Positions 43,570 through 58,955 of a stretch of 64,000 nt of DNA are shown in pieces. Below the pieces are notes generated by a model. It was not told the origin of the DNA and made no database searches. It saw nothing but the letters and a program-made list of their open reading frames with translations. Each line of letters starts with the position of its first letter. Positions within the stretch are counted from its first letter, which is position 1. Both the position numbers and the translations under genes were made by a program. The DNA comes from an uncultured Mycoplasmatota bacterium (GTDB taxonomy: Bacteria > Bacillota_I > Bacilli_A > Izemoplasmatales > Izemoplasmataceae), in contig CAJXVW010000001.1 in the NCBI GenBank assembly GCA_913062645.1, forward strand, positions 62,001-126,000, given 5' to 3'.

Positions 43570-44166
43570 CTACTGTAGAATATCGTTTATGATGATGCTT
43601 GCGCCCGTGATTAATTCGGACAGCTTCATCGTATGTTTGTTTGCGTTTGTCATGTGTTCCATATGGGGCACGTGAATGAAACCGAAACGGTAGTCGAGAT
43701 GATGCTTGTCCGCATAGTATGCCGTATGGTAAAAGATGTTGTTGCATAGTGCCAATCCAGCACTGTTGCTTATGATGGAAGGGATGTTGTGCTGATTCAG
43801 AGATGTCTCTATTCTTCGTATGTTTAGATTTGTGAAGTATGCGGGTTGTCCATCTTGTTTGATGATTTCATCGGTTGCCTGGTATCCGTCGTTGTCGGGA
43901 CCGTTGGAATGCATCCGGTTGAGGCAGACTCGCTCAATGGCAAAGCGATCGCCTCCTGCAGAACCGAAGGAAATGATGGCTTTGGTGTTGCTGTCGATGT
44001 GGGGTTCTAGTTCATCAAAACAGCGATTGAAAACCAATGGTAGAATCACTTTTTTAATCTTTACTTCATCAATGATATCGGGTAAGCTTTTAAGTATGTT
44101 TTTGCCGGCATGGTATGCATCATCAGATACCTTGCTGTTGTTGAAAGCTGTCACAATGATGTTCAT
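43570..44166 (-). CDS. Pyroglutamyl-peptidase I-like cysteine peptidase
   Basis: Protein of 198 aa of the C15 family, which removes N-terminal pyroglutamate from peptides. The catalytic triad is visible: Glu in FAIERVCLN near 77, Cys in SNSAGLALCNNIFYHTAYYA near 139, and His in FGFIHVPHMEHM near 163. The start is either ATG 44166 or the adjacent ATG 44169, both after GGAGGAACG. It is third in a leftward unit after a BlaI-like regulator and a lipoprotein. Sequence is diverged from classic Pcp, and the region is AT-richer than the chromosome core. Confidence 0.85.
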   Translation of the reverse strand: MNIIVTAFNNSKVSDDAYHAGKNILKSLPDIIDEVKIKKVILPLVFNRCFDELEPHIDSNTKAIISFGSAGGDRFAIERVCLNRMHSNGPDNDGYQATDEIIKQDGQPAYFTNLNIRRIETSLNQHNIPSIISNSAGLALCNNIFYHTAYYADKHHLDYRFGFIHVPHMEHMTNANKHTMKLSELITGASIIINDILQ

Positions 44167-44217
44167 CATCGTTCCTCCGTGGATTGTTTTTTGGACCTCG
44201 CAGTTTGGCCTTCAACG

Positions 44218-45534
44218 CTATTCCGCATGCGTCAAGAAATCATCCAGATATGAGGTTGGAATGACGGCATGCAAATACGAGTCGAACCCATCCGCAAAGA
44301 GATTGGTTTCGTTAAATATCGTATAACTATCCGTTGTGACCGAAAACTGATCCGCTAAGAGATTCAGTTGTTGGCGGGGGATGAGGCAGTCATCCATGGT
44401 ATACAAATCGTATGTGAAATCGTCTTGTGGGGTTGCCAAATCGTCATCGGTAATGAATCGATCATAATCTTCATACAGGGTGAACTCCGGTCCGAAATAA
44501 GGAAACTCGAGATACGTGAAGGGAGTGATGGGATAACTGGCGTTTGCGGTGTAGACTCGATCGTTTTCGATGTAGTCCCACCCCGTTATGTCCAGAAGAT
44601 TCCATTGGAGTTGGACCATGTTTATGGTGTCATCTTCAACAACGACAGTCATGTCGCTGACATTGATCGAGGCATGATGGTCATGGAACAACGTGAAGTA
44701 CTTATGTGAGTACGTTGTTCCTGCGGAGTAGACAATGTAATACTCGTCGTCAAAGTGTCGTTCGGCTCGTCCAATGTCATAGAACCCATACGATGGCATC
44801 GCAGTAACTAGAACAGTCGTGACGGTATTGCTGTCAAAGGCATAGTCGTATTGGAAGTAGTGTTGGTTCGTACCATCTGTTACAACGCTACGTTCAAAGT
44901 AGCGTTGGTCTTGATCGTATTGAATGTAGTTTGTAGCGATGCCGGCGAACGGCGAGTCCTGTGAACGCTCCAACGCATCAAACCACAGTTTGTTGTCTAC
45001 AACGCGCAATCGGTACCAACCATATCTGGACTCGTTGGGATTGTCTATCGTTACATGAAGGATCCCATCTTCAAGATGGTATGATATGGTTCCCAGGTCA
45101 CTGTTGTATTGTTGTTCCGGAGTTAGCAGGTCTTCCATCAACAAGGTGGATAACCCCTCGCTGATTCGATGTGCTCGGATGCTTCCTTCGTGAAAGATAA
45201 GGTCTTCCACATCATAGGAAATGACGTCCTCTCGGTCGATGTGGTAGGTCGTAGCAGTGGTGAAAAATTGTGAATAGTATTCTTGTTCCTCTTCAAACCA
45301 TGTGTTCATGAAGTCTTCGTTGGTCGTGATGGCATCGCGCAGTGTTTCCATGATGACTCGACCATCCATGTCATCTGTGATGGGGTTGGGATCCACACAC
45401 GTTCCATCACGATATACGAGCCCTTCTTGGCAATAGGGATCGATGTCATCGATGTTCGCATCGTAGGGCTCGTTTTTCGGGTTGCACGCGGATAAGATTA
45501 TGATTAAGAAAAGTGCGATAGATATCTTTTTCAT
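44218..45534 (-). CDS. Lipoprotein with Cys-pair motif, unknown function
   Basis: Protein of 438 aa. The signal MKKISIALFLIIILSAC has lipobox LSAC (Cys 17). After a short acidic linker comes CQEGLVYRDGTCVDPN, the same C-x2-G-xn-C-V-D pattern repeated in the lipoprotein at 59534. The rest is beta-rich and aromatic, with no known domain; two Cys-containing segments near the end are not in motifs. It lies 20 bp after the BlaI-like gene and 51 bp before the peptidase gene. I infer a surface lipoprotein whose level is set by the regulator. Confidence 0.75.
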   Translation of the reverse strand: MKKISIALFLIIILSACNPKNEPYDANIDDIDPYCQEGLVYRDGTCVDPNPITDDMDGRVIMETLRDAITTNEDFMNTWFEEEQEYYSQFFTTATTYHIDREDVISYDVEDLIFHEGSIRAHRISEGLSTLLMEDLLTPEQQYNSDLGTISYHLEDGILHVTIDNPNESRYGWYRLRVVDNKLWFDALERSQDSPFAGIATNYIQYDQDQRYFERSVVTDGTNQHYFQYDYAFDSNTVTTVLVTAMPSYGFYDIGRAERHFDDEYYIVYSAGTTYSHKYFTLFHDHHASINVSDMTVVVEDDTINMVQLQWNLLDITGWDYIENDRVYTANASYPITPFTYLEFPYFGPEFTLYEDYDRFITDDDLATPQDDFTYDLYTMDDCLIPRQQLNLLADQFSVTTDSYTIFNETNLFADGFDSYLHAVIPTSYLDDFLTHAE

Positions 45535-45554
45535 GCTGCCGGGTTCCTTCCTTG

Positions 45555-46481
45555 TCATTTGTAAGTTGCCTGTATGTATTGGATCCATTCGGAAGTGAGG
45601 GTTTCTTGGTGCTTGAACATCACCGACAGACGACGACGGCCATGCGTGATGTCGCGGATGGTGGAGAAACCATGTTTGTGAATCAGGAATGATAGAAACA
45701 GATAGGCGAGTTCGTGTTGACGCATTTCACCGATTTTGTCTTCCTCGACCAGCAAATCCATCAACCGATTATTATCAATCAACGCAATGAGTTCTTGATG
45801 GATTGGTTTGATGATCGCATCCATTTGCAAGCTTGACAGTACCGTTGCCAGACCTTGTTTAAAATAGAATGGAAGACCGTGGTTCTGTTTGTCGATTTCG
45901 ACATTGGCGATGATGAACGATAGTGCGCCCTCCAGGGGAAGCGTATCAAAATGGTGCTTGGGAGCAAGATGATACAATCCGTAGTTTTCACCTATGCGCA
46001 ACCAATCGGGAGCGGAGGATTGCCCCAGGGCGCTGTGTAGATTCTGTAAACTTTTGTGAATCATAATGGATTGGTGATGTTCCGTTTCAAGTTCCAGTGT
46101 GTTGCATATTTGCTTGTAGTGTTTGTTCGCATGCGACAATATGGTTGAAACATATTCATTGTCCGCATATCCATAAATGTCAAAATATCCATGTGAAACA
46201 ATCAGGTTGTCGCCGTAGATGCGAAGCACGGTAGCCCGCATCTCCTGATGGACGCATTGCTCTTCCGTATAGACACAGGAATATGTTGGATACCGTTCGG
46301 ACAAATTGACGCTTAGATATCCCTTGTCAACCAATCGGGAGACAAGCGTCTTGACTGTGGATTTGGTCCATCCCCGTTCTTCAACAAGTTGCTCGTGGAT
46401 GGCACCGGTCGAACAATTGGGGTGCTCCCACAATACACGAAGAATGGCCCAGTCGGTACTTGAAATTGGAGCGTTTCTCAT
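45555..46481 (-). CDS. BlaI/CopY-type repressor fused to a peptidase-MA-like domain
   Basis: Protein of 308 aa. Residues 1-75 are a BlaI/MecI/CopY winged helix: SSTDWAILRVLWEHPNCSTGAIHEQL, then WTKSTVKTLVSRLVDKGYL. BlaI proteins normally stop at about 125 residues, but here about 190 more follow. That part resembles the gluzincin peptidase-MA fold: LEGALSFIIANVEIDK where the HExxH helix should be, then GLPFYFKQGLATVL (compare PxWLxEGLAxY), then HELAYLFLSFLIHKHGFSTIRDI (compare the AxSFVRYLIxKYG helix). The HExxH itself is missing, so a binding rather than catalytic role is likely. ATG 46481 fits the GAGGTG RBS. A cop-box operator lies on its promoter. Confidence 0.75.
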   Translation of the reverse strand: MRNAPISSTDWAILRVLWEHPNCSTGAIHEQLVEERGWTKSTVKTLVSRLVDKGYLSVNLSERYPTYSCVYTEEQCVHQEMRATVLRIYGDNLIVSHGYFDIYGYADNEYVSTILSHANKHYKQICNTLELETEHHQSIMIHKSLQNLHSALGQSSAPDWLRIGENYGLYHLAPKHHFDTLPLEGALSFIIANVEIDKQNHGLPFYFKQGLATVLSSLQMDAIIKPIHQELIALIDNNRLMDLLVEEDKIGEMRQHELAYLFLSFLIHKHGFSTIRDITHGRRRLSVMFKHQETLTSEWIQYIQATYK

Positions 46482-46496
46482 TTGCATCACCTCAAC

Positions 46497-46548
46497 GACT
46501 ACACGTGTAGTCTATAATAATTGTAGCAACGTTTTTTACAAAAGTCAA
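46497..46548 (-). promoter_or_regulatory. Promoter with consensus BlaI/CopY operator
   Basis: Minus strand TTGACT (46548-46543), 17 bp, TACAAT (46525-46520). Just downstream is the perfect 16-bp palindrome GACTACACGTGTAGTC (46497-46512), whose core TACACGTGTA matches the CopY/BlaI consensus TACAnnTGTA. Autorepression is strongly suggested. Confidence 0.8.
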
Positions 46549-46608
46549 TCATGATCGCAAATGCATGAATAACATTGTACATTTGACAGTTCCGAGTGAG
46601 AAAGGAAA

Positions 46609-46643
46609 AGAAGACATCGCACGTATGCAAAGCGATGTCTTCT
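46609..46643. other. Orphan 12-bp inverted repeat
   Basis: AGAAGACATCGC (46609-46620) and GCGATGTCTTCT (46632-46643) are perfect arms with an 11-nt loop. On the minus strand a T-rich stretch follows, so it could end leftward transcription, but no leftward gene lies upstream. The 46550-46924 gap also has ACGCAAATGA (46693-46702) inverted as TCATTTGCGT (46738-46747), next to the ROK promoter. Confidence 0.5.
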
Positions 46644-46750
46644 GAAGCAAACGGAACCAGTTGGTATTAGTTCTGTTCGCATGCGGCGACCCACGCAAAT
46701 GATACCGGAAGTGATGATTGTAGAGATCGTGTGTGTTTCATTTGCGTTGG

Positions 46751-46759
46751 TGGTATAAT
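46751..46759 (+). promoter_or_regulatory. Extended -10 promoter of the ROK kinase gene
   Basis: TGG-TATAAT, preceded at once by the right arm of a 10-bp inverted repeat (46738-46747). The leader to ATG 46925 is about 155 nt, unusually long for this window. Confidence 0.5.
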
Positions 46760-46924
46760 AAGAACAGGTGATGACATTGGAACACGATGATCTTGACGAT
46801 CTTATCTGATGCATCACGCATCATCATGGTTCTCTTCGTCGTGATGCAGACGTGGCATTTCAAACAATCCAACGAACTACAAGAACCATATCAAGAACAT
46901 TCTAACAATCATAAGGAGGACATC

Positions 46925-47851
46925 ATGGCTTATATCGGACTCGACATTGGTGGAACAAAGATCTTGGGCGCGTTGCTCGATGATGAAGGAGCGATCTTGG
47001 ACAAAGAAAAGACCGCTTCCCTTGCAGAAGAGGGGTTTGATACGTTTTTGTCGCAAGTACATCATGTCATTGACACCCTGTTTGAGCGTACGTCCGAACC
47101 AATTGCGGGTATCGGCGTTGGCGTGCCGGGCATGGTGGACCAACAAGGCGTTGTCGTGTTTACCCCAAACTTGCCGATGAAAAAGTTTGATCTTACCAGT
47201 CATCTGAAGGAACGATACCACACCAATGTACAACTCGGAAACGATGTTAATTTGGGGACCTATGGCGAGTACAAGGAACTCAAAATACAACACAAGAATG
47301 TCATTGGATTCTTCCCGGGGACTGGTCTTGGTGGTGGAATCATCATCAATGGGAGACTGTACATTGGGAAAGGACTCGCCGGAGAACTTGGCCATATTGT
47401 CGTGAACAAGAATGGCGTACCATGTAGTTGTGGCAACGAGGGTTGTCTGGAAAGTTATGCCTCGAAGAAAGGTATTATCGCCTACTTGCAAAGTCAACTG
47501 GATCACGGGCGAGATACGGTTTTAAGAGATGCGGTTGAAACGGGTGTGATCAAAAGTTCGAAACTGAAAAAAGCGGTTGATCAAGGAGATGTTCTCGCGG
47601 TAGAAGCGATTGAACAGTTCAAAGAGTATTTGGGGATGGGCGTTGGCATGATCATGAACATCTTTAATCCTGATTTGATTTTAATCGGGGGCGGAATTAT
47701 CGATGCGTTCGGTGAAGAGATGCTGATCGACATCAAAAAACATGCGAAACATCATGCGATGAAAGGCATTTACAAACGCACCGAGATTCGCCAATCGAGA
47801 TTGGGTGATGACGCTGTCATCTATGGTGCGTTCCATTTGGTACGTGACTAG
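46925..47851 (+). CDS. ROK family glucokinase
   Basis: Sugar kinase of 308 aa. Phosphate-1 motif GLDIGGTKILGALLDDEG at the N-terminus, GVGVPGMVDQQG near 66, NDVNLGTYGE near 105, phosphate-2 GFFPGTGLGGGI near 130, and the ROK zinc motif CSCGNEGCLESYASK near 163. It most likely phosphorylates glucose to glucose 6-phosphate for PfkA and Pyk. No HTH domain is present, so it is an enzyme and not a NagC-like regulator. The start is ATG 46925 after AAGGAGGACATC; the frame is open upstream but without an RBS. Confidence 0.93.
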   Translation: MAYIGLDIGGTKILGALLDDEGAILDKEKTASLAEEGFDTFLSQVHHVIDTLFERTSEPIAGIGVGVPGMVDQQGVVVFTPNLPMKKFDLTSHLKERYHTNVQLGNDVNLGTYGEYKELKIQHKNVIGFFPGTGLGGGIIINGRLYIGKGLAGELGHIVVNKNGVPCSCGNEGCLESYASKKGIIAYLQSQLDHGRDTVLRDAVETGVIKSSKLKKAVDQGDVLAVEAIEQFKEYLGMGVGMIMNIFNPDLILIGGGIIDAFGEEMLIDIKKHAKHHAMKGIYKRTEIRQSRLGDDAVIYGAFHLVRD

Positions 47852-47947
47852 CGATATCTTGTTCACCATAGTACATTGTATTTGGATGTCAAGGAAGTCC
47901 CCCGAATCTCGATTGATCGTTGGGTTGACTCAAATAACAATCGGAAG

Positions 47948-47970
47948 AAAGCCTGTCTAGGCTTTTTTTT
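47948..47970 (+). terminator. Terminator downstream of the ROK kinase gene
   Basis: AAAGCCT-GTCT-AGGCTTT with a T-run, nested in a second arm pair AATAACAA (47933-47940) and TTGTTATT (47969-47976). Confidence 0.85.
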
Positions 47971-47976
47971 GTTATT

Positions 47977-48177
47977 GTAACTTCAACACTGGATAACAAC
48001 TTTCATGAATGAAAGTGGCACGAGGGTCGGACTCGATGATGATCATGTTCAATCAATTTGTTCGGTGCTCACAACGGCACACGTTCGGAAACCCCATTTG
48101 GGGAACAGATGAATCTTCTTTGAAGGCGCTCAAAAGGGGTATATTGTCATTTTGTTAGTGTCTAATAAAAGCGGATA
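47977..48177. other. Gene-free gap before the FIST operon
   Basis: No credible gene. It holds the inverted repeat ACTTTCAT-GA-ATGAAAGT (47999-48016) and a small CCCCA-TT-TGGGG hairpin further on. Both could be regulator or RNA structures; nothing more can be said. Confidence 0.4.
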
Positions 48178-48221
48178 TGGTATAATATTAATAGTTTGAA
48201 ATATGAATTATCTTGGAGGAG
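48178..48221 (+). promoter_or_regulatory. Extended -10 promoter and RBS of the FIST operon
   Basis: TGG-TATAAT at 48178-48186 and GGAGGAG at 48215-48221 before the GTG at 48227. Confidence 0.55.
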
Positions 48222-48226
48222 ATATT

Positions 48227-49393
48227 GTGTTGAAAGTAATTGTAAGTCACAGCGACGACGTAGATGCGATTGATGCGATAGAGGAGATAATTGAAGACGT
48301 TAGAGAGCAATTGGATGGGTTGGTGCCACAAGCAGGTCTGTTGTTTTGTGGGCTTGATTTCGAATATGATGTGTTGTTGGAGGAACTGTACAACGAATTT
48401 CCCGATATTGAACTGATCGGCGGGACAACGGATGGAGAGGTGTCCTCCACACTTGGTTATGAACAAGGGTCGGTCGTGTTAACGTTGTTCGTGTCGGATA
48501 CCGTGGAAATCAAAGCCGGAGTCGGGAAACACTTGTCAGAAGATATCGATTTGGCAACGAAAACCGCGGTTGAGCAGGCATCCTCCAAAATGGACACCGA
48601 CGTCAAATTCTGTTTTACAGTGTATGAGAGTCTGACCTGCAGTGCCGTTGTTGTGTTGGAAAGTCTAAAACGCCGGTTGGGAGTCGACATCACCGTTTTG
48701 GGTGGTTTGGCAGCCGATGATTGGAACATGCGCAAGACATTCCAGTTTTATAACAATGAAGTATTGTCTGATTCCGTTCCGTTGTTGCTGTTTGGCGGAC
48801 AGGTTGAGTTTTCGTATGGAGTAGCAAGCGGTTGGGAACCGATCGGGGTGCAGAAGGTCGTGACCAAAGTCGATCACAACGTGGTTCATGAACTGGATGG
48901 GGCACCGATACTGGACTTTTACAATCACTATCTCGGGGAGTATTCAACCCTTACGTCCAATTACCCCCTGGCCGTGTTTCCGGATGTTGCCGCACATGAC
49001 AAGTTTTACTTGCGGAATCCGGCAGGAGTGGTCGACGGTACGACGTCCATCGCCTTTTTTGGCGACATTCCGTTGCATGCGACGGTTCAGCTGACAGAGG
49101 CTACAAGCGAAAAAATCGTCGAAGCCGTCGAGACCGCAGTAAATATGGCAATCGGCAATTTTGGCGATGCCAAACTCGAATCGGCTCTGGTCATTTCGTG
49201 TTCCGGACGATGCAAGGTGCTGGGCATCAACACACGGGAAGAAATTGCGTTGCTACAATCCAAATTGCCTGCTGATTGTTCCATTTCCGGGCTGTATGGA
49301 TACGGCGAAATCGCACCGCTTGACAAAGGAATGGAAAGCCAGTTCCACAATGGTACGATCGTCGTCATTCTGCTTGGTGAAAGCCATGTATGA
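48227..49393 (+). CDS. FIST domain sensory protein
   Basis: Protein of 388 aa made of the FIST N domain (about 1-200; LLFCGLDFEYDVLLEELYNEFPDIELIGGTTDGEVSS) and the FIST C domain (about 210-380; YLGEYSTLTSNYPLAVFP, then ISCSGRCKVLG and a GLYGYGEIAP end). FIST is a small-ligand sensory module; some members bind haem and NO (NosP). No haem ligand can be assigned here. It has no TM segment, so it acts in the cytosol. GTG 48227 suits the GGAGGAG spacing. It overlaps the cyclase gene by 8 bp, so sensor and enzyme are made together. Confidence 0.9.
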   Translation: MLKVIVSHSDDVDAIDAIEEIIEDVREQLDGLVPQAGLLFCGLDFEYDVLLEELYNEFPDIELIGGTTDGEVSSTLGYEQGSVVLTLFVSDTVEIKAGVGKHLSEDIDLATKTAVEQASSKMDTDVKFCFTVYESLTCSAVVVLESLKRRLGVDITVLGGLAADDWNMRKTFQFYNNEVLSDSVPLLLFGGQVEFSYGVASGWEPIGVQKVVTKVDHNVVHELDGAPILDFYNHYLGEYSTLTSNYPLAVFPDVAAHDKFYLRNPAGVVDGTTSIAFFGDIPLHATVQLTEATSEKIVEAVETAVNMAIGNFGDAKLESALVISCSGRCKVLGINTREEIALLQSKLPADCSISGLYGYGEIAPLDKGMESQFHNGTIVVILLGESHV

Positions 49394-50216
49394 CCTAGAT
49401 CAGAATGAGATAAAAAATCTGATCAAGAAGGTAAAGAAACTTGAAGTCAAATTGAAACGCAGCGAAGCGAATCGTGAACTACTTCAAGGAATGAAGGAAA
49501 AGGATCAGTCACTGCTCAAGATGATGCGATCCGAAATCAACGAGGCCATGAAAGTCATCGAAGAGAAAAACGAAAAAATCACATTGGAAATGGAAAAGTC
49601 CGATAAGTTGCTGTTAAACATTCTGCCTGTCCGCGTCGCGAACGATTTGAAAGAACGAGGGACGACGACCCCTGAATACTTTGAAAACGTTACGGTGTTT
49701 TTCAGTGACATTGTGGACTTCACCAAAATTTCATCCAAGTTGTCTCCTACGGTTTTGATTGATGAACTGAATACCATTTTCACAGCGTTCGACAGTATTG
49801 TCGAATCCAACAACTGCGAACGAATCAAGACCATTGGCGATGCGTACATGGCCGTCGGCGGAATGTCAATTCCGGACTCGAATCATGCGAAAAACATGGT
49901 GAAATCCGCGGTTCAGATTATCCAGTATCTGAATGAACGAAATCAAACGTCCGACATCCAGTGGAACATACGAATCGGATTGCACACCGGATCCATCGTC
50001 GGTGGCGTTGTGGGTGTGAAAAAATACATATACGATGTGTTCGGAGACACGGTGAATACGGCATCGAGAATGGAAACAAACTCAGAAAGAATGAAAATCA
50101 ATATTTCCGATGCGACCTATCAGCTTGTCAAGAACGATTTTACTTGTATCGAGCGTGAGTCGATCAAAGTCAAGGGAAAAGACAGGATGAAAATGTGGTT
50201 TGTCGAACCACGATAA
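49386..50216 (+). CDS. Class III adenylate cyclase with coiled-coil N-terminus
   Basis: Protein of 276 aa. Residues 1-75 are a long charged heptad-like helix (coiled coil), then the cyclase homology domain. Metal-binding Asp residues are in VFFSDIVDFTKIS near 105. ERIKTIGDAYMAVGG near 150 carries the purine-selecting Lys, and YDVFGDTVNTASRME near 216 carries the purine-selecting Asp plus the Asn and Arg of catalysis. Lys plus Asp predicts ATP as substrate (cAMP product). There is no membrane segment; input probably comes from the FIST protein through the coiled coil. ATG 49386 lies 5 nt after GGTGA. Confidence 0.93.
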   Translation: MYDLDQNEIKNLIKKVKKLEVKLKRSEANRELLQGMKEKDQSLLKMMRSEINEAMKVIEEKNEKITLEMEKSDKLLLNILPVRVANDLKERGTTTPEYFENVTVFFSDIVDFTKISSKLSPTVLIDELNTIFTAFDSIVESNNCERIKTIGDAYMAVGGMSIPDSNHAKNMVKSAVQIIQYLNERNQTSDIQWNIRIGLHTGSIVGGVVGVKKYIYDVFGDTVNTASRMETNSERMKINISDATYQLVKNDFTCIERESIKVKGKDRMKMWFVEPR

Positions 50217-50286
50217 TTCGTTCGCAAGCGATGGACAAGACGATCCGATTTTTTTAGATATCATCCAAGTGCGTGGAGGTGCAAGC

Positions 50287-51753
50287 ATGAACGAACTGTC
50301 ACTGCTTAACAAGTTGAGTGAGATATCCATTCAGTTGTCCTATGAGAAGGATGTCGACAAATTATTGCAACTCATTTTGGAAAGCTGCATCGAGATCACC
50401 GGAAGCGACGCCGGAAGCATCTATACGGTGGAGGAGAATCAACTCCATTTTGAGTACACCGTCAATCACTCGGTCGATTTTCCATCCAAGAAGTTCAGCA
50501 TGCCAGTCAGTTCCGATTCCATATCGGGCAATTGCGTGTTGAACAAGACGACATACAATCTGACATCGATGGAAGACACCCAAGCATTGTTCGGGATCAC
50601 GCACAATCGATCGTTTGATGAATCCATCGGCTATAAAACGATCAACATGCTGGTCATACCCATGGAGAACTTCAAGGGTGAGGTCATCGGTGTCTTGCAA
50701 CTCATCAACAAGAAAGACGATGCCGATGTGATCATCACCAGTGACAGTGACTTGGATTTGCCCGAATACACTGCATTGGATGAACAGATCACGAACTCAC
50801 TGGCGTCACAAGCCGCCATACTGCTGGAACGGACCAGACTCCAACAAGATCTCACCAATCTTCTCGATTCGATGATCAGTACGTTGTCAACGGCGTTGGA
50901 CCAACGCGATCCAATCACGGCGGGCCATTCAAAACGAGTCGCCGAGCTTTCGATTGAATTGGCGAAAGCCATCAATGACGATCAGGGCTTGTACAAGGAT
51001 GTCCTGTTTGACGAAGACGCCTTGAAGGAACTCCACATATCCGCCCTGTTGCATGATGTCGGTAAAATCGGCGTGCCCGAATCGATTCTACAAAAGCAAA
51101 ACAAGTTAACGGATGAGAAAATTAATGAAATCGTTTCAAGATTCTATTTGATCGCCGAGATTTTACACAACCGAAACGAAGAAACCCACTATTTTGGCGA
51201 ACATCTGGACCACACCATCGAACACTTGATCCGGATCAGCAAAACGAATTTTCTTGCGGATGAGGACAAGGCGTTTTTGAACGACTTGCGGAATCATCCC
51301 AACGTGGATTACAAGAATGTCACGATTGAAGTGTTGCACGAACACGAATACAACAGTTTGATGATTCAAAAAGGTAACCTGACGGTGGAAGAACGAAACC
51401 AGATTCAGAAACATGCGAACTATTCGAAGGATATTCTGGAAAACATCAACTGGGGCAAGAAGCTATCCAATGTTCCGAAGTTGGCTGCCAGCCATCACGA
51501 GAAATTGAATGGCAAAGGGTATCCGTTCGGTCTCGACGAATCGCGATTGTCGCTGATCGAACGAATCATGCCAATCATTGACATTTATGATGCGTTGACG
51601 GCGACCGATCGACCATACAAGCCAGCCATGTCGAAAGAGAAGGCGTGTGCCATTCTCGGCTATGAAGTGGAAAACGGATCGCTCGACAAACATCTGGTCG
51701 AGTTGTTCAAAAAACAAGTTGTGGGGTTGAGGGAGGAAGAACATGCGAGTTAG
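50287..51753 (+). CDS. GAF and HD-GYP phosphodiesterase-like protein
   Basis: Protein of 488 aa. A GAF domain covers about 10-180 (ESCIEITGSDAGSIYTVEE, GEVIGVLQLINKKD). A short helix leads to an HD-GYP domain at about 200-470: DPITAGHSKRVA, LLHDVGKIGVPESIL with the metal-binding HD, and HHEKLNGKGYPFGL with the GYP motif. Between them an insertion of about 90 residues separates KLTDEK from the LTVEERNQIQKHA helix. HD-GYP enzymes usually cleave cyclic di-nucleotides; no GGDEF cyclase is in the window. A GAF ligand such as cAMP is conceivable given the neighbour. ATG 50287 follows GGAGGTGCAAGC. Confidence 0.92.
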   Translation: MNELSLLNKLSEISIQLSYEKDVDKLLQLILESCIEITGSDAGSIYTVEENQLHFEYTVNHSVDFPSKKFSMPVSSDSISGNCVLNKTTYNLTSMEDTQALFGITHNRSFDESIGYKTINMLVIPMENFKGEVIGVLQLINKKDDADVIITSDSDLDLPEYTALDEQITNSLASQAAILLERTRLQQDLTNLLDSMISTLSTALDQRDPITAGHSKRVAELSIELAKAINDDQGLYKDVLFDEDALKELHISALLHDVGKIGVPESILQKQNKLTDEKINEIVSRFYLIAEILHNRNEETHYFGEHLDHTIEHLIRISKTNFLADEDKAFLNDLRNHPNVDYKNVTIEVLHEHEYNSLMIQKGNLTVEERNQIQKHANYSKDILENINWGKKLSNVPKLAASHHEKLNGKGYPFGLDESRLSLIERIMPIIDIYDALTATDRPYKPAMSKEKACAILGYEVENGSLDKHLVELFKKQVVGLREEEHAS

Positions 51754-52519
51754 TTTATACGGGACCATGGGATCGATCGCTGGTGGCTTTTCTGATTTGG
51801 GACGAAACACCACCAGTGTTGTCATCCATAATGGTGACAAGGACTTGATTGTGGATCTTGGAACCGGTGTGTTGCAGCACATGATCGGAAACGATGATTT
51901 GGAACACCACATCTTGCTGACCCATTATCATCTTGATCACATCCTCGGCTTTCCCTTTGTTCCGCAGTTGTTTAGTCGAGACTATACATTGCACTTGTAT
52001 GGGCCACAGTCCAGTGACAAGAGCATTGCCGAAGAGTTGGTTGGGGTTATGCGGGAGCCGTTCCTTCCCATAAAACGGGAACATATTTTGGCAACCATAA
52101 CGTCGAACCCCATAGTTGAGAAAACGAGATACATGGTGAATGGATTTGCGGTGGAAGCCTTCCACATCAATCATCCGGGGGGAAGTTATGTGTATGCCAT
52201 CCAGGCGGACGGGAAAAAAGTAGTGGTTTTGTGCGACCTTCCCAACGGAATGGAATCGAATGAGGAACTGATTGCGTTTTGTTCCAAATCCGATTTGATT
52301 TACGTTGATGCGATGTTTGTCGAGTCCGAGTTTGAAAATGTGAAGTTGCTCCAATATGGACATTCCTCGGTCGAATCGGCAATCCGGTTGTTTCGGAAGA
52401 CGGCGTCACAGAAACTGGTACTGGGTCATCACAAAATATCCAGACAGTATGATGATCTGAAACACTACGAAACAGACGACATCGTGGTTGGAAGAGATGA
52501 CATGGAATTCCAACTGTAA
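51743..52519 (+). CDS. Metallo-beta-lactamase-fold hydrolase, possible cyclic nucleotide phosphodiesterase
   Basis: Protein of 258 aa. The di-metal motif is LLTHYHLDHILGFPF (HxHxDH near residue 62), followed by INHPGGSYVYAI near 142, VVLCDLP with a metal Asp near 163, and a final HH in KLVLGHHKI near 228. The GFPF and GHSSVESA elements resemble MBL phosphodiesterases found beside class III cyclases, but RNA- or lactone-cleaving relatives cannot be excluded. It overlaps the HD-GYP gene by 11 bp and ends the operon. Confidence 0.85.
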   Translation: MRVSLYGTMGSIAGGFSDLGRNTTSVVIHNGDKDLIVDLGTGVLQHMIGNDDLEHHILLTHYHLDHILGFPFVPQLFSRDYTLHLYGPQSSDKSIAEELVGVMREPFLPIKREHILATITSNPIVEKTRYMVNGFAVEAFHINHPGGSYVYAIQADGKKVVVLCDLPNGMESNEELIAFCSKSDLIYVDAMFVESEFENVKLLQYGHSSVESAIRLFRKTASQKLVLGHHKISRQYDDLKHYETDDIVVGRDDMEFQL

Positions 52520-52587
52520 CATTCCAAGCAACAACGAGCAGTAATCGTTCTGTAACAGTTTGCATTGCCAATAGTGAACTTCATAAC

Positions 52588-52607
52588 AAGGCCCTTTTGG
52601 GCTTTTT
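52588..52607 (+). terminator. Terminator of the FIST-cyclase operon
   Basis: AAGGCCC-TTTT-GGGCTTT with one G-T pair and a T-tail, about 70 bp after the MBL gene. Confidence 0.75.
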
Positions 52608-52609
52608 AT

Positions 52610-52801
52610 GTACTCGTGGTTTCTAATCATAATTTATATTGTTTGATGCAGGACGCATTGTCTGACCATATGGATGACATCGAAGGAGCGGATGCTGCAT
52701 TTGACATCATGGAAAACATACAGGATGGAACAAGCCGTTTCAACTGGCCATAAAGATCTGGAACATTGCATAGAAGGTGCTTCCCCACAAGGAAGTACCT
52801 T
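52610..52801. other. Gap between two terminators, possible gene remnant or small RNA
   Basis: Between the terminator at 52588 and a second hairpin (AAGGTGCTTCC at 52774-52784 with GGAAGTACCTT at 52791-52801, one G-T pair, then T's) lies about 165 bp. A short rightward frame ends at 52753 in a well-behaved acidic stretch (about 27 codons from the ATG at 52670) without an RBS. A terminator with nothing obvious in front of it suggests a decayed gene or an sRNA. Confidence 0.4.
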
Positions 52802-52804
52802 TTT
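52774..52804 (+). terminator. Second terminator
   Basis: 11-bp stem with one G-T pair, loop CCACAA, followed by five T's. Confidence 0.7.
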
Positions 52805-52868
52805 ACTTGCTTTTGTGCGTATTGAATCGTATCCGTTTTAGGCCCCTATTTCAATAACGAGAAGATTT

Positions 52869-52877
52869 TGATATAAT
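52869..52877 (+). promoter_or_regulatory. Extended -10 promoter of the Mrp operon
   Basis: TGA-TATAAT, followed in the leader by a small TGGGA-ATGTCC-TCCCA hairpin before the first gene. Confidence 0.5.
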
Positions 52878-52926
52878 CGAATTAAGTGGGAATGTCCTCC
52901 CATGTGCAGGAAAGGTGTTGATACCC

Positions 52927-53421
52927 TTGAACAAGAAGTTTGGAGCGGCATTGTTGTTTGTGTTGTTGCTGACGTTTTGGATCGTCTTGTCCTTCCAGCT
53001 GTCGGTCACGATCGTGATCATCGGTGCGATGGCGTCGGCGCTGATCGTTTGGTATAATCTGGATCTGGTGTTCAACGACAAGGAAACGACGACCAGGACC
53101 GTTCGTCAGATCGGGCGGTTGCTTCGTTTGTTTGTTGTGTTGATCTACAACATCGTGACATCCAACATCCAGGTGGCCAGAATCGTGTTGCGCCGCAACA
53201 TGGGGATCGATCCGGGGTTTGTAAGCATACCGAATCCTCTCCGCAAGGAGTTGCATCAGGCGTTCTTCGCCAACGCCATCACCTTGACGCCGGGGACGCT
53301 GACGGTGGACATGGATGCGGACACGATTCTCATTCACAGCCTCATCAAAGAACACGGTCACAAGCTGGACGACAGCAGTTTGGAGAAAGCCTTTGTCGCA
53401 TTGGAGGAGGATCAATCATGA
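52927..53421 (+). CDS. mrpE: Mrp/Mnh antiporter subunit E
   Basis: Protein of 164 aa. The N-terminal half has two or three TM helices, followed by the MrpE signature (VLIYNIVTSNIQVARIVLRR, then ITLTPGTLTVD near 122). It is the first gene of the antiporter operon and corresponds to MbhA of membrane-bound hydrogenases. The start is uncertain: TTG 52927 is 9 nt after the GGAAAGGTG, whereas a GTG at 52915 lies within it. It overlaps mrpF by 4 bp. Confidence 0.92.
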   Translation: MNKKFGAALLFVLLLTFWIVLSFQLSVTIVIIGAMASALIVWYNLDLVFNDKETTTRTVRQIGRLLRLFVVLIYNIVTSNIQVARIVLRRNMGIDPGFVSIPNPLRKELHQAFFANAITLTPGTLTVDMDADTILIHSLIKEHGHKLDDSSLEKAFVALEEDQS

Positions 53422-53687
53422 TTGAAACAGCGGTAACGATCGGTGTCGTCGTGCTCGTGTTGTTGACCTTCATCGGGTTGTACCGGGCGATTGTTGGACC
53501 AACGGCCGAGGAGCGGATGGTCGCCATCAACATGATCTCCACCAAGGTGACGACGATGATTGTCATGATTGCCTTGATCACAGCCCAAGCGGTCTATGTC
53601 GATGTCGCGTTGGTCTATGCGTTGCTCGGTTTCATCACGACGATCGGGCTGGCCAAGTTCTTGATGAAAGGGAAGCTGGGTGCATAG
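53418..53687 (+). CDS. mrpF: Mrp/Mnh antiporter subunit F
   Basis: Protein of 89 aa with three TM helices. The conserved stretch GLYRAIVGPTAEERMVAINMISTK after TM1 is the subunit F hallmark. It forms part of the small-subunit cluster of the cation/proton antiporter. Translation is coupled on both sides by short overlap or 1-bp spacing. Confidence 0.93.
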   Translation: MIETAVTIGVVVLVLLTFIGLYRAIVGPTAEERMVAINMISTKVTTMIVMIALITAQAVYVDVALVYALLGFITTIGLAKFLMKGKLGA

Positions 53688-53688
53688 T

Positions 53689-54003
53689 ATGTGGGAACTC
53701 ATTCAAACGATTCTCGTGATTGCTTGTCTGGCCAGCGGGTTGTTCTTCTTTTTTGTCGGCGTGGTGGGGTTGATCCGGATGCCGGATGTCTTCACCCGCA
53801 TGCACGCCACCACCAAATGTGACACGATGGGTGCCGGGCTCGTGTTCTTGGGGCTCATCATCTGGCAAGGCGCCAGTTTCGTTTCCATCAGCATCGTTCT
53901 CATCTTGTTGTTTGTGTGGATCACCAATCCGACCGCGGCCCACGCCATCGCGAAAAGTGCGTACAAGGAACTGAAACGAAGGGAAGGTACGAGACGATGG
54001 TAG
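53689..54003 (+). CDS. mrpG: Mrp/Mnh antiporter subunit G
   Basis: Protein of 104 aa with three TM helices. VGVVGLIRMPDVFTRMHATTKCDTMGAGLVFLG near residue 20-55 is the classic subunit G pattern. ATG 53689 is one base after the mrpF stop; a GTG at 53680 is a less likely start. It overlaps the next gene. Confidence 0.93.
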   Translation: MWELIQTILVIACLASGLFFFFVGVVGLIRMPDVFTRMHATTKCDTMGAGLVFLGLIIWQGASFVSISIVLILLFVWITNPTAAHAIAKSAYKELKRREGTRRW

Positions 54004-54236
54004 TGCTTAATGTCATCATTGTCGTGTTCTTGATCGTCTGTGCCGTTGCGATCGGCAAGATCAAGGACTTGATCGGGGCGGTCATCCTGTTTTCCGCATA
54101 CTCCTTGATGATGTCGGTGTTGTGGCTGATCCTCAACACGCCGGACGTGGCCATCACCGAAGCGTCGATCGGCGCCGGCGTGACGTCGATTCTGTTCTTT
54201 GCCGTCATTTCCAAGACAAGGAGGCACGAATCATGA
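53997..54236 (+). CDS. MbhD-like subunit (DUF4040; MrpA C-terminal piece 1)
   Basis: Protein of 79 aa with three TM helices. VAIGKIKDLIGAVILFSAYSLMMSVLWLILNTPDVAITEASIGAGVTSILF is the DUF4040 pattern, which in canonical Mrp systems is part of the MrpA C-terminus. Here it is a free-standing gene, as in archaeal Mbh/Mbx operons. It overlaps both neighbours by a few bases. Confidence 0.88.
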   Translation: MVVLNVIIVVFLIVCAVAIGKIKDLIGAVILFSAYSLMMSVLWLILNTPDVAITEASIGAGVTSILFFAVISKTRRHES

Positions 54237-54532
54237 GAGCCAAGCTTACGGACATCGTGTTTGTCATCGTCTTTGTCGTCTTGGTGATCGGCGTGATGAA
54301 CATGCCGACGGATGCAACGACGGCCGCGCCGGCATACAATGACATCATCAACCACTATCTTGAGCAAGGAGCGGATGAAACCAACGCCGTCAACATTGTC
54401 GCGGCGATTTTGACGGACTACCGCGGATTCGACACCCTGGGCGAGACGATTGTTCTCTTCACCTCGGTGGTGGCGGTGTCGTCGGTATTGCGATCGGCGC
54501 GTCACGACTGGAAGTTTGATGACGATGAATGA
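54233..54532 (+). CDS. MbhE-like subunit (MrpA C-terminal piece 2)
   Basis: Protein of 99 aa with two TM helices (about 6-25 and 72-88) and a polar outer loop. NHYLEQGADETNAVNIVAAILTDYRGFDTLGETIVLFTSVVAV matches the MbhE domain, otherwise the extreme C-terminus of MrpA. It is encoded separately here. It overlaps the previous gene by ATGA and the next by 8 bp. Confidence 0.88.
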   Translation: MRAKLTDIVFVIVFVVLVIGVMNMPTDATTAAPAYNDIINHYLEQGADETNAVNIVAAILTDYRGFDTLGETIVLFTSVVAVSSVLRSARHDWKFDDDE

Positions 54533-54956
54533 TATCATTGTCAAAACGATCACGCGGATCGTGCTCCCGTTTGCGCAACTGTATGGTGTCTTTGTCATTC
54601 TCAACGGACACATCTCCCCCGGAGGAGGATTTGCCGGTGGAGCAATTCTGGGAACGACGCTGATCTTGTACACGTTGGTCTTCGGACGCAAGAAAGGAAG
54701 TAAAAAATTCTCGCACCGCGCATCTGAAATCGCGGAAAGCGGCGGTATCATGTTGTTCATCCTGATCGGTCTCATCGGACTGATGCTCGGCGGCAGTTTT
54801 TTGACGAATCTGGACGCCGGGTTTCCAGCGGGCGAGCTGGGTTCGATCCTCAGCGGCGGGATGATCCCGTTGTTGATGATCGCGATCGGGATCAAGGTCA
54901 CATCCACCATGATCAATCTGTTCAACCTGCTCATCGATGAGGGGGTGCACTCATGA
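54525..54956 (+). CDS. mrpB: Mrp/Mnh antiporter subunit B
   Basis: Protein of 143 aa with four TM helices. NGHISPGGGFAGGAILGTTLILYTL near residue 28-52 is the subunit B/MbhF signature. ATG 54525 is my choice; ATG 54519 two codons upstream is equally possible. It lies inside the small-subunit cluster with overlaps at both ends. Confidence 0.92.
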   Translation: MNDIIVKTITRIVLPFAQLYGVFVILNGHISPGGGFAGGAILGTTLILYTLVFGRKKGSKKFSHRASEIAESGGIMLFILIGLIGLMLGGSFLTNLDAGFPAGELGSILSGGMIPLLMIAIGIKVTSTMINLFNLLIDEGVHS

Positions 54957-55339
54957 CCATCCTGCAAGATGTCGTGGACAACATCAACTACATCGGAGCC
55001 ATTGCCGTGTTCTTGATTGGATTGCGGATCGTCGTCGTGCACAGCAACATGATCAAGCGGATCATGGGTCTCAACATCATGGGGACCGGGGTGTTTTTGT
55101 TCTTCGTATCGATTGGGAACGTGACGGGAGGCATGGCGCCGATCGTTGATCCGAACGCACCCGGCGTCACCTACATCAACCCGCTTCCGTCGGTGATGAT
55201 TCTGACCGGAATCGTTGTCGTCGTTTCGGTTACGGTGTATTCGTTGTCGCTGGTGATTCGAATCTTTGAGACCTACGGCACGATCGATCAGGAAGAACTC
55301 TCGCAGATGGCAAGAAGGAATCATCACAATGATCGTTGA
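54953..55339 (+). CDS. mrpC: Mrp/Mnh antiporter subunit C
   Basis: NuoK-like protein of 128 aa with three TM helices. IGLRIVVVHSNMIKRIMGLNIMGTGVFLFFV and DPNAPGVTYINPLPSVMILTGIVVVVSVT are the MrpC/MbhG hallmarks, the latter being a variant of the DPLPQALVLTAIVI motif. The C-terminal tail is charged. It overlaps mrpB and mrpD. Confidence 0.93.
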   Translation: MTILQDVVDNINYIGAIAVFLIGLRIVVVHSNMIKRIMGLNIMGTGVFLFFVSIGNVTGGMAPIVDPNAPGVTYINPLPSVMILTGIVVVVSVTVYSLSLVIRIFETYGTIDQEELSQMARRNHHNDR

Positions 55340-56816
55340 ACATCTGCCGATCCTGAACTTGATCCTGTTCATGAGCATGGCGCTTGTCATTCCCTTGTTG
55401 CGACGACAACCGTTCAAGATTACGCTGATTCTCGGATTCATCGTGCTGGGTCTGGTATCGGTGAGTTCGATCTATCTTTTGTATCACGTCAACCAGTTCG
55501 ATGCGATCCATTATACGTTGGGCGGACATGACACCCGGTTTGGGATCGAATTGCTTGTCGATCCGTTTTCCGCGTTGTTTACGACCATCATCGTTCTGTT
55601 GGCATCGATCATTTATGTCTATTCGAGTGGTGACCGGACCGAGGGCATCGAGCCGAACGAGTACGGACGGTATTATGTCCTGTTGTTCGTGTTGTTGATG
55701 TCGTTGTTCGGCGTGTTGTACACCAACGATCTGTTCAACACCTACGTGTTCATCGAGATCTTGTCGATTACCACGTGCGCCCTCATCTCGATCAAGCGAA
55801 AGCGCGAGGCCTATTCGTCCGCGTTCCGTTACGTGATGATGAATGAACTGGGCTCGCTGTCCTATCTGTTTGGAGTGGCGCTATTGTACATGGCGACCGG
55901 AATCACCAACATCTCGCTGATCGGACAAGCGCTGCAAACGGCATACGAGACGTACCCCTTCAACGTTGTCATCGCGCTGACGTTCATGATGATCGGACTC
56001 GGGATCAAGGCCGCCATATTTCCGTTTCACGTATGGTTGCCGGACGCCCATTCGAGCGCTCCGAGCACGTCCAGCTCACTGTTGTCGGCGATCGTCATCA
56101 AGGTCTATGTGCTGGTCTTGATCAAGATCTTGTTCCGCGTCTTCAACGTCGAGATTCTTTTGGATCTGAACATGCGGACGGTGCTATTGGTGGTTGCTGG
56201 GATCGGGATGATCATGGGGTCGGTGTTCGCCATCGCCCAACAGGATGTGAAACGGATGCTGGGGTATTCCTCGGTCGCTCAGATCGGATACATTCTACTG
56301 GGCATCGGACTCTTGTCATGGGAAGGATTGCGCGCATCGTTCTTCCACATCCTGTCGCACGGACTGATGAAGACCGCCTTGTTTCTGTCGGCCGGAGAGA
56401 TCATCTATTACAAGCGCACTAGACGTGTCAACGACTTTGACGGCATCGGCTTCATCATGCCGGTGGCGATGAGCGTGTTCTCGATCGCCGCGTTGGGGAT
56501 GATCGGACTGCCGTTCACCAGCGGCTTCATATCGAAGCTGTATCTCGGAACAGCGCTGTTGGATGGACGACAAGTGGTGTTCCTTGGCGTGTTGATCGTC
56601 AGTTCGTTGTTGAACGTGATGTACTATTTGCCAATCATCATCTTGGCGTTTTTGAAAAATGAGAAATACCAGTACCGCTTGACATCGATCGAACGGGCCC
56701 CGTCGACGATGATCGGTCCGTTGGTCCTGTTGGGGCTGCTCATCGTGTTGCTCGGGGTCATGCCGCAGCCGATCATGCAGTTGATCGATGCCGCCGTGCA
56801 TACATTGATTCCCTAG
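55329..56816 (+). CDS. mrpD: Mrp/Mnh antiporter subunit D
   Basis: Protein of 495 aa with about 14 TM helices, homologous to NuoL/M/N proton-pumping subunits. The key Glu in YVFIEILSITTCALI (TM5) near 140, the Lys in GLGIKAAIFPFHVWLPDAHSSAPS (TM7) near 224, and the QQDVKRMLGYSSVAQIGYILLG (TM8) near 310 are intact, as is a His in FHILSHGLMKTALF. It should provide one ion channel of the complex. ATG 55329 follows AGAAGGAATCATC. Confidence 0.95.
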   Translation: MIVEHLPILNLILFMSMALVIPLLRRQPFKITLILGFIVLGLVSVSSIYLLYHVNQFDAIHYTLGGHDTRFGIELLVDPFSALFTTIIVLLASIIYVYSSGDRTEGIEPNEYGRYYVLLFVLLMSLFGVLYTNDLFNTYVFIEILSITTCALISIKRKREAYSSAFRYVMMNELGSLSYLFGVALLYMATGITNISLIGQALQTAYETYPFNVVIALTFMMIGLGIKAAIFPFHVWLPDAHSSAPSTSSSLLSAIVIKVYVLVLIKILFRVFNVEILLDLNMRTVLLVVAGIGMIMGSVFAIAQQDVKRMLGYSSVAQIGYILLGIGLLSWEGLRASFFHILSHGLMKTALFLSAGEIIYYKRTRRVNDFDGIGFIMPVAMSVFSIAALGMIGLPFTSGFISKLYLGTALLDGRQVVFLGVLIVSSLLNVMYYLPIIILAFLKNEKYQYRLTSIERAPSTMIGPLVLLGLLIVLLGVMPQPIMQLIDAAVHTLIP

Positions 56817-56831
56817 GAATGGTGGTGAACC

Positions 56832-58955
56832 ATGTACCGATTCCGTGACATCAAAGTGTTTGACAAGATGGTCAAATCCAATTCGATTCTGGTGGGGTTG
56901 TCCCTGCTTCTTTTGGTGTGGTTCGTGGCGTATGCGTCCGACTGGTTCGGCTGGTCGATTTGGCTTCAACAAACGGACTGGTACGCGCAACTACTGGTCT
57001 CGGGGTGGATCGATTATCTGCCGCTGTTGATCATTGTCATTCCTCTCATCGGGTCGTTCGTGGAACTGTATTGTGCCAAAGCATCACCGCGATTCCGCGA
57101 TCAAGCCGTGATCTACACCGGGTTCATCACGCTCGTCGTCGTGTTGTTCTCCTATCCGCTCATTCTTGACAACGATGTCTCATTCGAACTGGCAAATGTG
57201 TTCGATCTGGGATTGAGTTTCCGTATCGACACCCTGGGGTACATCGTCTTGTTGCTGTCCGCGTACTTGTGGTTTTACGTGATGGTCTACGCTCATGTGT
57301 ACATGCAACGGGAGAAACACAGTACGAGATTTTTCTTCTTTCTCGGACTGACCTACGCCACCGTCATCGGCGCCATTGTCGCCGGCGATCTGTTGACGAT
57401 GTTCGTCTTCTTCGAGGTCATGACGGTGTCATCGTACATGCTTGTCATCCATGGCCAGAACGAGGAGTCGTATCAAGCTGGCTACAAGTATCTCGTGATG
57501 GGTCTGATCGGTGGGTTCCTGATTTTCGCCGCCATCGTGCTCATGTATTTCAACGTCGGCGATCTTGGCTTCGACAGCGCCATTGTCCAACTCGCTGAGT
57601 TGGGAGCGACGCGCTATTGGATCATCGGACTGATTGTGCTCGGGTTCGGCGTCAAGGCCGGGATGGCGCCATTGCACGTATGGTTGCCCAAGGCCCATCC
57701 GGTCGCTCCATCTCCCGCCAGCGCCTTGTTGTCGGGAGTCATGATCAAGATTGGCGCCTTCGGCATCATTCGTGCCGTCACCAGTTATTATTTTCCGACC
57801 AAGGACATGATGGTCGGAGGGGACGATCCGATATGGTTCACCGCGTCCACAATCGGCGCGATCCTGATCTGGGTCGGTATCGTCACGATGACGATCGGGG
57901 TCTTCCTGGCGTTGTTGCAAGCGAACATGAAGAAGATGCTGGCGTACCATTCGATCAGTCAGATGGGCTACATCATCGTCGGCATCGGCGTCGCCATGTA
58001 TTTGGGATACAAAGGAGCGCTCGGATACGGTGGTGCGGTCTATCACATCGTCAATCACGCGTTGTTCAAGTCGCTGTTGTTCATGGTTGCCGGAGTGGTG
58101 TACTATCACACGCACGAGCAGAACATGTACAAGCTGGGCGGCTTGTGGAAGAAGCTTCCCGTCACGACCGTCGTCTTTTTGATCGCCGCGCTGGGGATCA
58201 GCGGCGTGCCGTTGTTCAACGGCTACGTGTCGAAGACGATGCTTCATCACGCCATCGTCGAAGCGCATGAATATGGATCGTCCATCTTCCTCTATGCCGA
58301 ATGGATTTTTCTCCTGGTGAGTGCCGGAACGGTCTGTTCCTTCGTCAAGATGTTTTACTATGTCTTCATCCGCAAGACCGACAACGCATACCCCGACGCG
58401 ACCTTCGACTTCTCTAGTTTCGATGTGGCGCTTTGGGCGATCGCGATTCTGATTGTCTGGATCGGATGGAATCCGAATTTCCTTCTCGACGCGCTCGTGA
58501 TCCCGCAACTGAATCGGATGGCGTACTCCTCGGATTTCATCGATCATTACGTCGTTGGCATCAACGTGTTCGCCGGCGAGGACCTTCTGGTCACGCTCGG
58601 CATCCTCGGGTTTGGCGGTGTCATGTTCGTGATTGGCGACAAACTCCACCTGTTTCACAAGACCCTTCCCAAGTGGTTGTCGATCGAGTACTGGTTCTTT
58701 CTCCCGGCGTTTCTCGTCATGCGCGGAGTGTGTCGGCGGATGTATGGAAAGCGATTCCGAATCGATGACAAGGAGTACGAGCAACTCAATGAAATCAGCA
58801 ACGACAGGCTCGGATTCATCGAGCGCTTCATCATCACGAGCAATGTCGTGAATCGCCGATACGAGCAAAGTCTGATTCGCAAGGACGCCCTCATCTACAG
58901 TGTCTTGTTGATGGTGTTGCTGCTTTGGATGATGATGGATCAACTGATATTATGA
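56832..58955 (+). CDS. Second NuoL/MrpA-D-like antiporter subunit
   Basis: Protein of 707 aa with 16 or more TM helices. The proton-translocation core is intact: Glu in FVFFEVMTVSSYMLVIHGQ near 195, Lys in GFGVKAGMAPLHVWLPKAHPVAPSPASALLSG near 275, QANMKKMLAYHSISQMGYIIVG near 365, and IVNHALFKSLLFM. A C-terminal extension of about 150 residues (FDFSSFDVALWAI and onward) with charged amphipathic parts and a final helix follows. It is 15 bp after mrpD. It takes the place of MrpA, although the MbhD/E pieces are elsewhere in the operon. The complex would then have two pumping subunits. Confidence 0.9.
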   Translation: MYRFRDIKVFDKMVKSNSILVGLSLLLLVWFVAYASDWFGWSIWLQQTDWYAQLLVSGWIDYLPLLIIVIPLIGSFVELYCAKASPRFRDQAVIYTGFITLVVVLFSYPLILDNDVSFELANVFDLGLSFRIDTLGYIVLLLSAYLWFYVMVYAHVYMQREKHSTRFFFFLGLTYATVIGAIVAGDLLTMFVFFEVMTVSSYMLVIHGQNEESYQAGYKYLVMGLIGGFLIFAAIVLMYFNVGDLGFDSAIVQLAELGATRYWIIGLIVLGFGVKAGMAPLHVWLPKAHPVAPSPASALLSGVMIKIGAFGIIRAVTSYYFPTKDMMVGGDDPIWFTASTIGAILIWVGIVTMTIGVFLALLQANMKKMLAYHSISQMGYIIVGIGVAMYLGYKGALGYGGAVYHIVNHALFKSLLFMVAGVVYYHTHEQNMYKLGGLWKKLPVTTVVFLIAALGISGVPLFNGYVSKTMLHHAIVEAHEYGSSIFLYAEWIFLLVSAGTVCSFVKMFYYVFIRKTDNAYPDATFDFSSFDVALWAIAILIVWIGWNPNFLLDALVIPQLNRMAYSSDFIDHYVVGINVFAGEDLLVTLGILGFGGVMFVIGDKLHLFHKTLPKWLSIEYWFFLPAFLVMRGVCRRMYGKRFRIDDKEYEQLNEISNDRLGFIERFIITSNVVNRRYEQSLIRKDALIYSVLLMVLLLWMMMDQLIL

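Follow-up and report, generated by a model that had tools for sequence, protein, structure and literature searches.

Organization of the locus

The window, the whole 64,000-nucleotide stretch of DNA analysed here, contains four co-directional open reading frames that encode, in order, a FIST protein, a class III adenylate cyclase, a protein with GAF and HD-GYP domains, and an MBL-fold hydrolase (Table 1). A first, sequence-only reading had described these genes as tightly linked, and their spacing is as it reported: the FIST and cyclase genes overlap by 8 bp, 70 bp separate the cyclase gene from the HD-GYP gene, and the HD-GYP and MBL genes overlap by 11 bp. All domains of the four proteins exceed the curated Pfam cut-offs. 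The FIST gene starts with GTG, preceded by a GGAGG; the TATAAT upstream of it, which we take as the likely promoter, was read by eye and is not among the returns of a consensus promoter scan. Since terminator-like hairpins lie both before and after the set, the four genes constitute one probable transcription unit. An Rfam search of the 42-54 kb interval returned no riboswitch and no other RNA family. Beyond the operon, at 52915-58955, lies an antiporter operon of the Mrp/Mnh type; its MnhE has 53-56% identity to proteins of another family in the order, and its best matches within the genus are only about 28-30% identical.

Table 1. Features of the operon and its borders, in window coordinates
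Feature	Position	Strand	Basis
Intrinsic terminator-like hairpin ending the upstream ROK-kinase gene	47942..47971	+	Terminator scan and sequence
TATAAT, extended -10 (TGnTATAAT), likely operon promoter	48181..48186	+	Read by eye
GGAGG ribosome-binding site of the FIST gene	48215..48219	+	Read by eye
FIST/FIST_C cytosolic sensor, 388 aa	48227..49393	+	Pfam; NosP model 97 bits vs cut-off 450; model pLDDT 94.5
Class III adenylate cyclase, 276 aa	49386..50216	+	Pfam; catalytic residues
N-terminal coiled coil, proposed FIST docking/adaptor helix	49401..49571	+	Profile searches
Cyclase homology domain	49674..50207	+	PF00211, residues 97-274
GAF-HD-GYP phosphohydrolase, 488 aa	50287..51753	+	Pfam; NCBIfam; PDB sequence matches
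GAF domain, putative cyclic-nucleotide-binding type (NK...YTALDE, cf. NKXnFX3DE)	50347..50829	+	Pfam, PDB matches, control
HD-GYP domain, HD/HHE/GYP motifs intact, carries insertion	50920..51693	+	Pfam, motifs, PDB
MBL-fold hydrolase, RNase Z / atypical class-II cAMP phosphodiesterase kind, 258 aa	51743..52519	+	Pfam, NCBIfam, PDB, signature
Metal-binding signature THYHLDH ([T/S]HXHXDH)	51920..51940	+	Motif; signature from PMC9293780
Terminator-like hairpin 3' of the MBL gene, GGCCC-TTTT-GGGC-T5 stem	52588..52607	+	Read by eye

The FIST protein

FIST proteins are best known as NO or heme sensors that act on histidine kinases or are fused to c-di-GMP enzymes. The window FIST matches Pfam FIST (PF08495) at 150.9 bits and FIST_C (PF10442) at 90.5 bits, both above cut-off; it is not a canonical NosP, scoring 96.9 bits with model NF041558 against an equivalog cut-off of 450. 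Its closest relatives are cyanobacterial and are encoded directly upstream of a histidine kinase. H374 is invariant and H8 nearly so; both are no more than candidate ligands. The predicted structure (an AlphaFold model, pLDDT 94.5) is most like FBXO22, with a more distant likeness to the cyclic amide hydrolases cyanuric acid hydrolase/barbiturase, which have the Toblerone fold; if the modelled likeness is a guide, FIST sensors may be descended from enzymes that bind cyclic amides, or may be similar to them. NosP-type FIST proteins bind heme and NO (PMC12570481), and heme inhibits CdpA of V. cholerae (PMC8846402). By analogy with other FIST proteins that bind heme, heme/NO is one candidate for the ligand of the window protein.

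The cyclase and its N-terminal coil

The cyclase (Pfam Guanylate_cyc, 196.7 bits) has no apparent transmembrane segment. The sequence-only reading had credited it with intact catalytic and ATP-selecting residues, and all six are present and invariant in alignments: the metal-binding Asp pair D108 and D152, the ATP selectors K148 and D217, and the transition-state pair N224 (Asn) and R228 (Arg). Judged by these residues it is a class III enzyme, and a single chain carries all six, the arrangement of adenylate cyclases that work as self-complementary homodimers. The helix preceding the catalytic domain gives a weak HNOBA match, of 20.5 bits in the window cyclase and up to 34 in the Rhodobacterales.

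At its N-terminus the window cyclase carries a coil of about 57 residues that is common to the histidine kinases and cyclases that partner FIST proteins and to FIST-linked SpoIIE-type phosphatases; when the partners are compared side by side its pattern, roughly LEKxxRILxKKLERSxxxRxxLExxxxxxExLLKxVIxELE, is alike in kinases and cyclases. An HMM built solely from the N-termini of FIST-partner histidine kinases recognized the cyclase of the window (20.8 bits, E 4.4e-5, where 1000 shuffles of its N-terminus reached at most 12.2 bits) as well as the Rhodobacterales FIST-partner cyclases (E 8e-8 to 1e-3), and matched none of four control cyclases. With a coil that fits the model of other FIST partners and a FIST gene adjacent, the window cyclase thus belongs to this FIST-linked coil module. 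A composition-bias correction of about 8 bits applies to the window score, so that no single coil match is overwhelming, and the genomic association is stronger evidence for the link between coil and FIST than the individual scores.

The association was surveyed with an alignment of the coil alone, the window and other seed sequences being part of the model. Across three other phyla, represented by 750 genomes, 30 of the 31 strong matches are next to a FIST gene or within one. Among 284 genomes of the phylum of L070 there were five matches, in four genomes, all FIST-linked; among 349 of the phylum of L073 all eight matches with E<1e-6 were FIST-linked and none of four weak ones (E>3e-4); and among 117 cyanobacterial genomes 17 of 18 were FIST-adjacent, the exception (L116) having no FIST within reach. 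These counts take in the three seed genomes. The five seed genomes, including the window's own, have one coil match apiece. In the one canonical NosP partner examined, an Azospirillum NahK, the coil is absent.

Three kinds of output are joined to the coil: histidine kinases, class III cyclases, separate or fused, and SpoIIE-type PP2C phosphatases. The phosphatases are fused to FIST in L097 (277-2391) and L100 (253-2382), and encoded beside it in L098 (332-2484), with the same coil. FIST, coil and cyclase form a single chain in members of two other phyla, L092 (247-2328, 693 aa) and L099 (259-2448, 729 aa), and separate FIST-cyclase pairs are found in L024, L073-L075, L095 and L023. All of these pairs except that of L095 are from Rhodobacterales and have a window-type FIST upstream of a class III cyclase, the FIST of L023 being split by a frameshift. 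The sequence-only reading had proposed a neighbourhood survey of FIST genes next to class III cyclases; the pairing recurs, split and fused, in other phyla, and the step from sensing to synthesis is strongly supported on comparative grounds by the common docking coil, the split pairs and the two fusions. The two fusions would also be good candidates for determining the structure of the signalling path. A decarboxylase gene, of the PLP-dependent kind in L024, precedes two of the Rhodobacterales pairs (L024:5629-9912 and L023:3594-10024), which may indicate a functional link.

A tree of FIST proteins separates those partnered by the coil from NosP and a Legionella FIST (98/95), the latter two being long branches. 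Cyclase-partnered FISTs appear in several places in it, and its starred branches force at least two changes; the window FIST is weakly placed among cyanobacterial, kinase-partnered FISTs. From the genome survey, the variety of outputs and the tree, the best reading of the coil is as an adaptor by which FIST proteins would address exchangeable outputs, the window pair being one instance. The FIST sensor probably docks on the coil of the cyclase.

The GAF domain and a candidate cAMP receptor

In the third protein Pfam finds HD_5 (108.5 bits), HD (51.9) and GAF_2 (38.8). Cyclic-nucleotide-binding GAF domains bear the signature NKXnFX3DE, which the window GAF matches with Y in place of F. For this GAF a search of all solved structures puts the GAFs of Anabaena CyaB2, which bind cAMP, first (1ykd, E 1.4e-13), followed by those of PDE5 and PDE2, all ranking ahead of the GAF-HD-GYP protein PmGH. 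The same matches, stronger, are returned by a full-length Leptospira homologue (32% identity), and none of the cAMP- or cGMP-binding GAFs was matched among solved structures by a control Vibrio GAF-HD-GYP. Published precedents exist for every link of such a read-out: a review describes Tlr0485 of Thermosynechococcus as a cAMP-activated GAF-HD-GYP c-di-GMP phosphodiesterase and Lcd1 as a cAMP-activated GAF-GGDEF protein (PMC8846402), and Bd1971 is an EAL enzyme gated by cAMP (PMC6717892). Structural matches, control and precedent favour the earlier suggestion that the GAF might bind the product of the cyclase; the Y in place of F in its motif counts against it.

That reading had also remarked that neither a GGDEF protein nor a CRP-like receptor is encoded in the window, a claim that concerned the window alone; genome-wide there are 12 GGDEF proteins and a single PF00027 (cNMP_binding) protein, of Crp/Fnr type (L134:1228-2058), near ribosomal protein genes. 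As sole candidate for a CRP-type cAMP receptor the latter is not an obvious effector: its cassette, GDVLLYGTINHNYPGNLITAQ, is without the canonical Arg-Ser/Thr. With 12 GGDEF proteins present, and the lone cNMP_binding protein lacking the canonical cassette Arg, the GAF-HD-GYP protein is, to judge from sequence, the best candidate cAMP receptor found in this genome.

The MBL-fold protein

The fourth protein (Lactamase_B_2, PF12706, 50.0 bits) has within its MBL fold the motif THYHLDH, an instance of the signature [T/S]HXHXDH of the atypical class-II cAMP phosphodiesterases Rv1339, YhfI and C. glutamicum CpdA (PMC9293780), and its best relative of solved structure is YhfI (6kns). It aligns over nearly its full length (residues 1-229) with the cyclic-nucleotide phosphodiesterase model NF041851, at 45.2 bits against an equivalog cut-off of 400. 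The RNase Z models score highest, at 71 bits, above the phosphodiesterase model, and both scores are far below the cut-offs of their families. The protein could therefore be an RNase Z-like nuclease or some other phosphodiesterase, cAMP being removed by other means, a possibility that we hold to be real if rather unlikely: the top score speaks for it, but the operon context and the full-length alignment to the cyclic-nucleotide phosphodiesterase family speak against, and the atypical class-II enzymes are themselves closely related to RNase Z, from which they may have evolved (PMC9293780). That the MBL protein removes cAMP, as first suggested, is thus plausible on the strength of its signature and nearest relatives, tempered by the sub-threshold score and the higher one for RNase Z.

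The two best plasmid relatives of the MBL protein adjoin class III cyclases; in the nine relatives sampled, a cyclase is the direct neighbour in three, a weak cyclase match turns up within about 4 kb in two, and no cyclase is near in the remaining four. Another cyclase-MBL neighbourhood, on a Rhizobium plasmid (L019:5434-8609), comprises a cyclic-nucleotide-binding protein, an MBL protein and a class III cyclase with a ferredoxin domain.

Distribution and origin

G+C content is about 45% across 42001-53000, and about 51-54% over most of both sides, as would be expected of an acquired segment. Recent inheritance within the clade can be set aside: FIST is present in three of the 295 genomes of a phylum sample, the other two FISTs being distant and having no adjacent cyclase; no close homologue of the MBL protein was found in 60 relatives or in the 295-genome sample, and none of the HD-GYP protein at E<1e-20 in the 60 relatives. 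Since close relatives are altogether without the FIST, HD-GYP and MBL genes, the cassette looks acquired. Queries with these three proteins found no relatives in viral contigs, so by this test it is not phage cargo.

Only one genome was seen to have the complete four-gene operon, and neither HD-GYP nor MBL genes were found beside FIST-cyclase pairs elsewhere. Scattering of the four genes in related genomes, which the sequence-only reading had said would tell against a common circuit, is therefore what we see for one half of the operon, whereas the FIST-cyclase pairing of the other half recurs. Such a distribution, together with the MBL relatives that are often not near cyclases, is what would be expected if the FIST-cyclase pair alone were the functional unit and the HD-GYP and MBL proteins were independent c-di-GMP or housekeeping enzymes on the same transcript. 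We think this doubtful, given the translational overlap of the HD-GYP and MBL genes and the gap of just 70 bp to the cyclase gene, a GAF domain of the putative cyclic-nucleotide-binding type, and a cAMP phosphodiesterase signature in the MBL protein.

The HD-GYP domain and its substrate

The motifs LLHDVGK, SHHEKLNGKGYP and IDIYDALTATDRPYK supply the HD, HHE and GYP elements of an HD-GYP hydrolase; the insertion in the domain is also present in Leptospira and Vibrio relatives. Its closest solved relative is the V. cholerae 3'3'-cGAMP phosphodiesterase 3 (V-cGAP3, E 7e-22), which is cGAMP-specific, and the next is the c-di-GMP enzyme PmGH (E 4e-18). That ranking would suit an enzyme, still gated by cAMP, whose substrate is 3'3'-cGAMP or another cyclic dinucleotide, but we regard this as improbable, the 12 GGDEF proteins making c-di-GMP the likelier pool and the known cAMP-gated GAF-HD-GYP, Tlr0485, hydrolysing c-di-GMP.

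Discussion

We propose that the operon is a soluble cAMP signalling cassette, and give this reading a probability of about one half. The FIST protein would sense a cytosolic ligand, perhaps heme/NO, and dock on the N-terminal coil of the cyclase; docking would alter the packing of the coil and so raise or lower the activity of the homodimeric enzyme. The cAMP made would bind to the third protein through its GAF and switch on the HD-GYP domain, which would hydrolyse c-di-GMP supplied by the genome's GGDEF enzymes, and the MBL protein would hydrolyse cAMP and so end the signal. The proposal draws on the gene order, the intact active-site motifs, the recurrent FIST-coil-output module, the FIST-cyclase fusions and the type of the GAF domain. 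The sequence-only reading had spoken of a self-contained circuit; sensing and synthesis stand up strongly and read-out is supported by sequence, but "self-contained" is not quite right, because the HD-GYP protein would feed the genome's own c-di-GMP network.

The broadest form of the proposal we offer tentatively, as rather less likely than not: that a portable docking coil allows a single family of sensors to control outputs that can be swapped (histidine kinase, adenylate cyclase, SpoIIE-type phosphatase), through at least two, and probably more, independent exchanges, and here powers a complete cAMP-to-c-di-GMP converter, whose sensor, synthase, cAMP-gated c-di-GMP hydrolase and cAMP phosphodiesterase would all come from one acquired operon. 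FIST proteins with kinases, FIST-c-di-GMP enzyme fusions, cAMP-gated c-di-GMP hydrolases and MBL cAMP phosphodiesterases are already known singly. The literature searched contains no FIST-cyclase coupling, shared coil, FIST-PP2C fusion or four-function operon, though the original FIST domain paper, outside that search, may mention some of the neighbours. The mechanism of FIST signalling has been called poorly understood (PMC8846402), and a docking helix common to kinase, cyclase and phosphatase partners provides a direct structural hypothesis for it. If one operon both makes cAMP and removes c-di-GMP, cross-talk between the two messengers would become testable with four soluble proteins.

Four known systems bear comparison. 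In NosP-NahK/NosK-NosR a heme/NO-binding FIST protein acts on a histidine kinase, where the window's output is a cyclase. In both, the FIST protein is cytosolic, stands alone and is encoded next to the output enzyme, and the path leads, here by proposal, to c-di-GMP turnover; NosR of B. pseudomallei also has an HD-GYP domain, albeit degenerate; the window FIST, however, falls far short of the NosP cut-off (97 bits against 450), the window system has no receiver domain, and its cyclase has the coil that the Azospirillum NahK lacks. In soluble guanylate cyclase with H-NOX, too, a soluble sensor acts on the catalytic domain, of class III, by way of a helical linker, and the weak HNOBA match of the coil recalls that linker, but here FIST replaces H-NOX, the selectors are of the ATP type and the sensor is usually a separate chain; should the FIST protein bind heme, the pair would be a FIST-based functional analogue of an NO-regulated soluble cyclase. 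Tlr0485, compared by description rather than by sequence, shares the GAF and HD-GYP domains and the cAMP gating proposed here, whereas a sensor-cyclase of its own and a probable cAMP phosphodiesterase are encoded alongside the window enzyme. The atypical class-II cAMP phosphodiesterases share with the window MBL protein the fold, the [T/S]HXHXDH signature and the kinship to RNase Z; the window protein differs in its low score with their family model (45 against 400 bits) and in lying in one operon with a cyclase.
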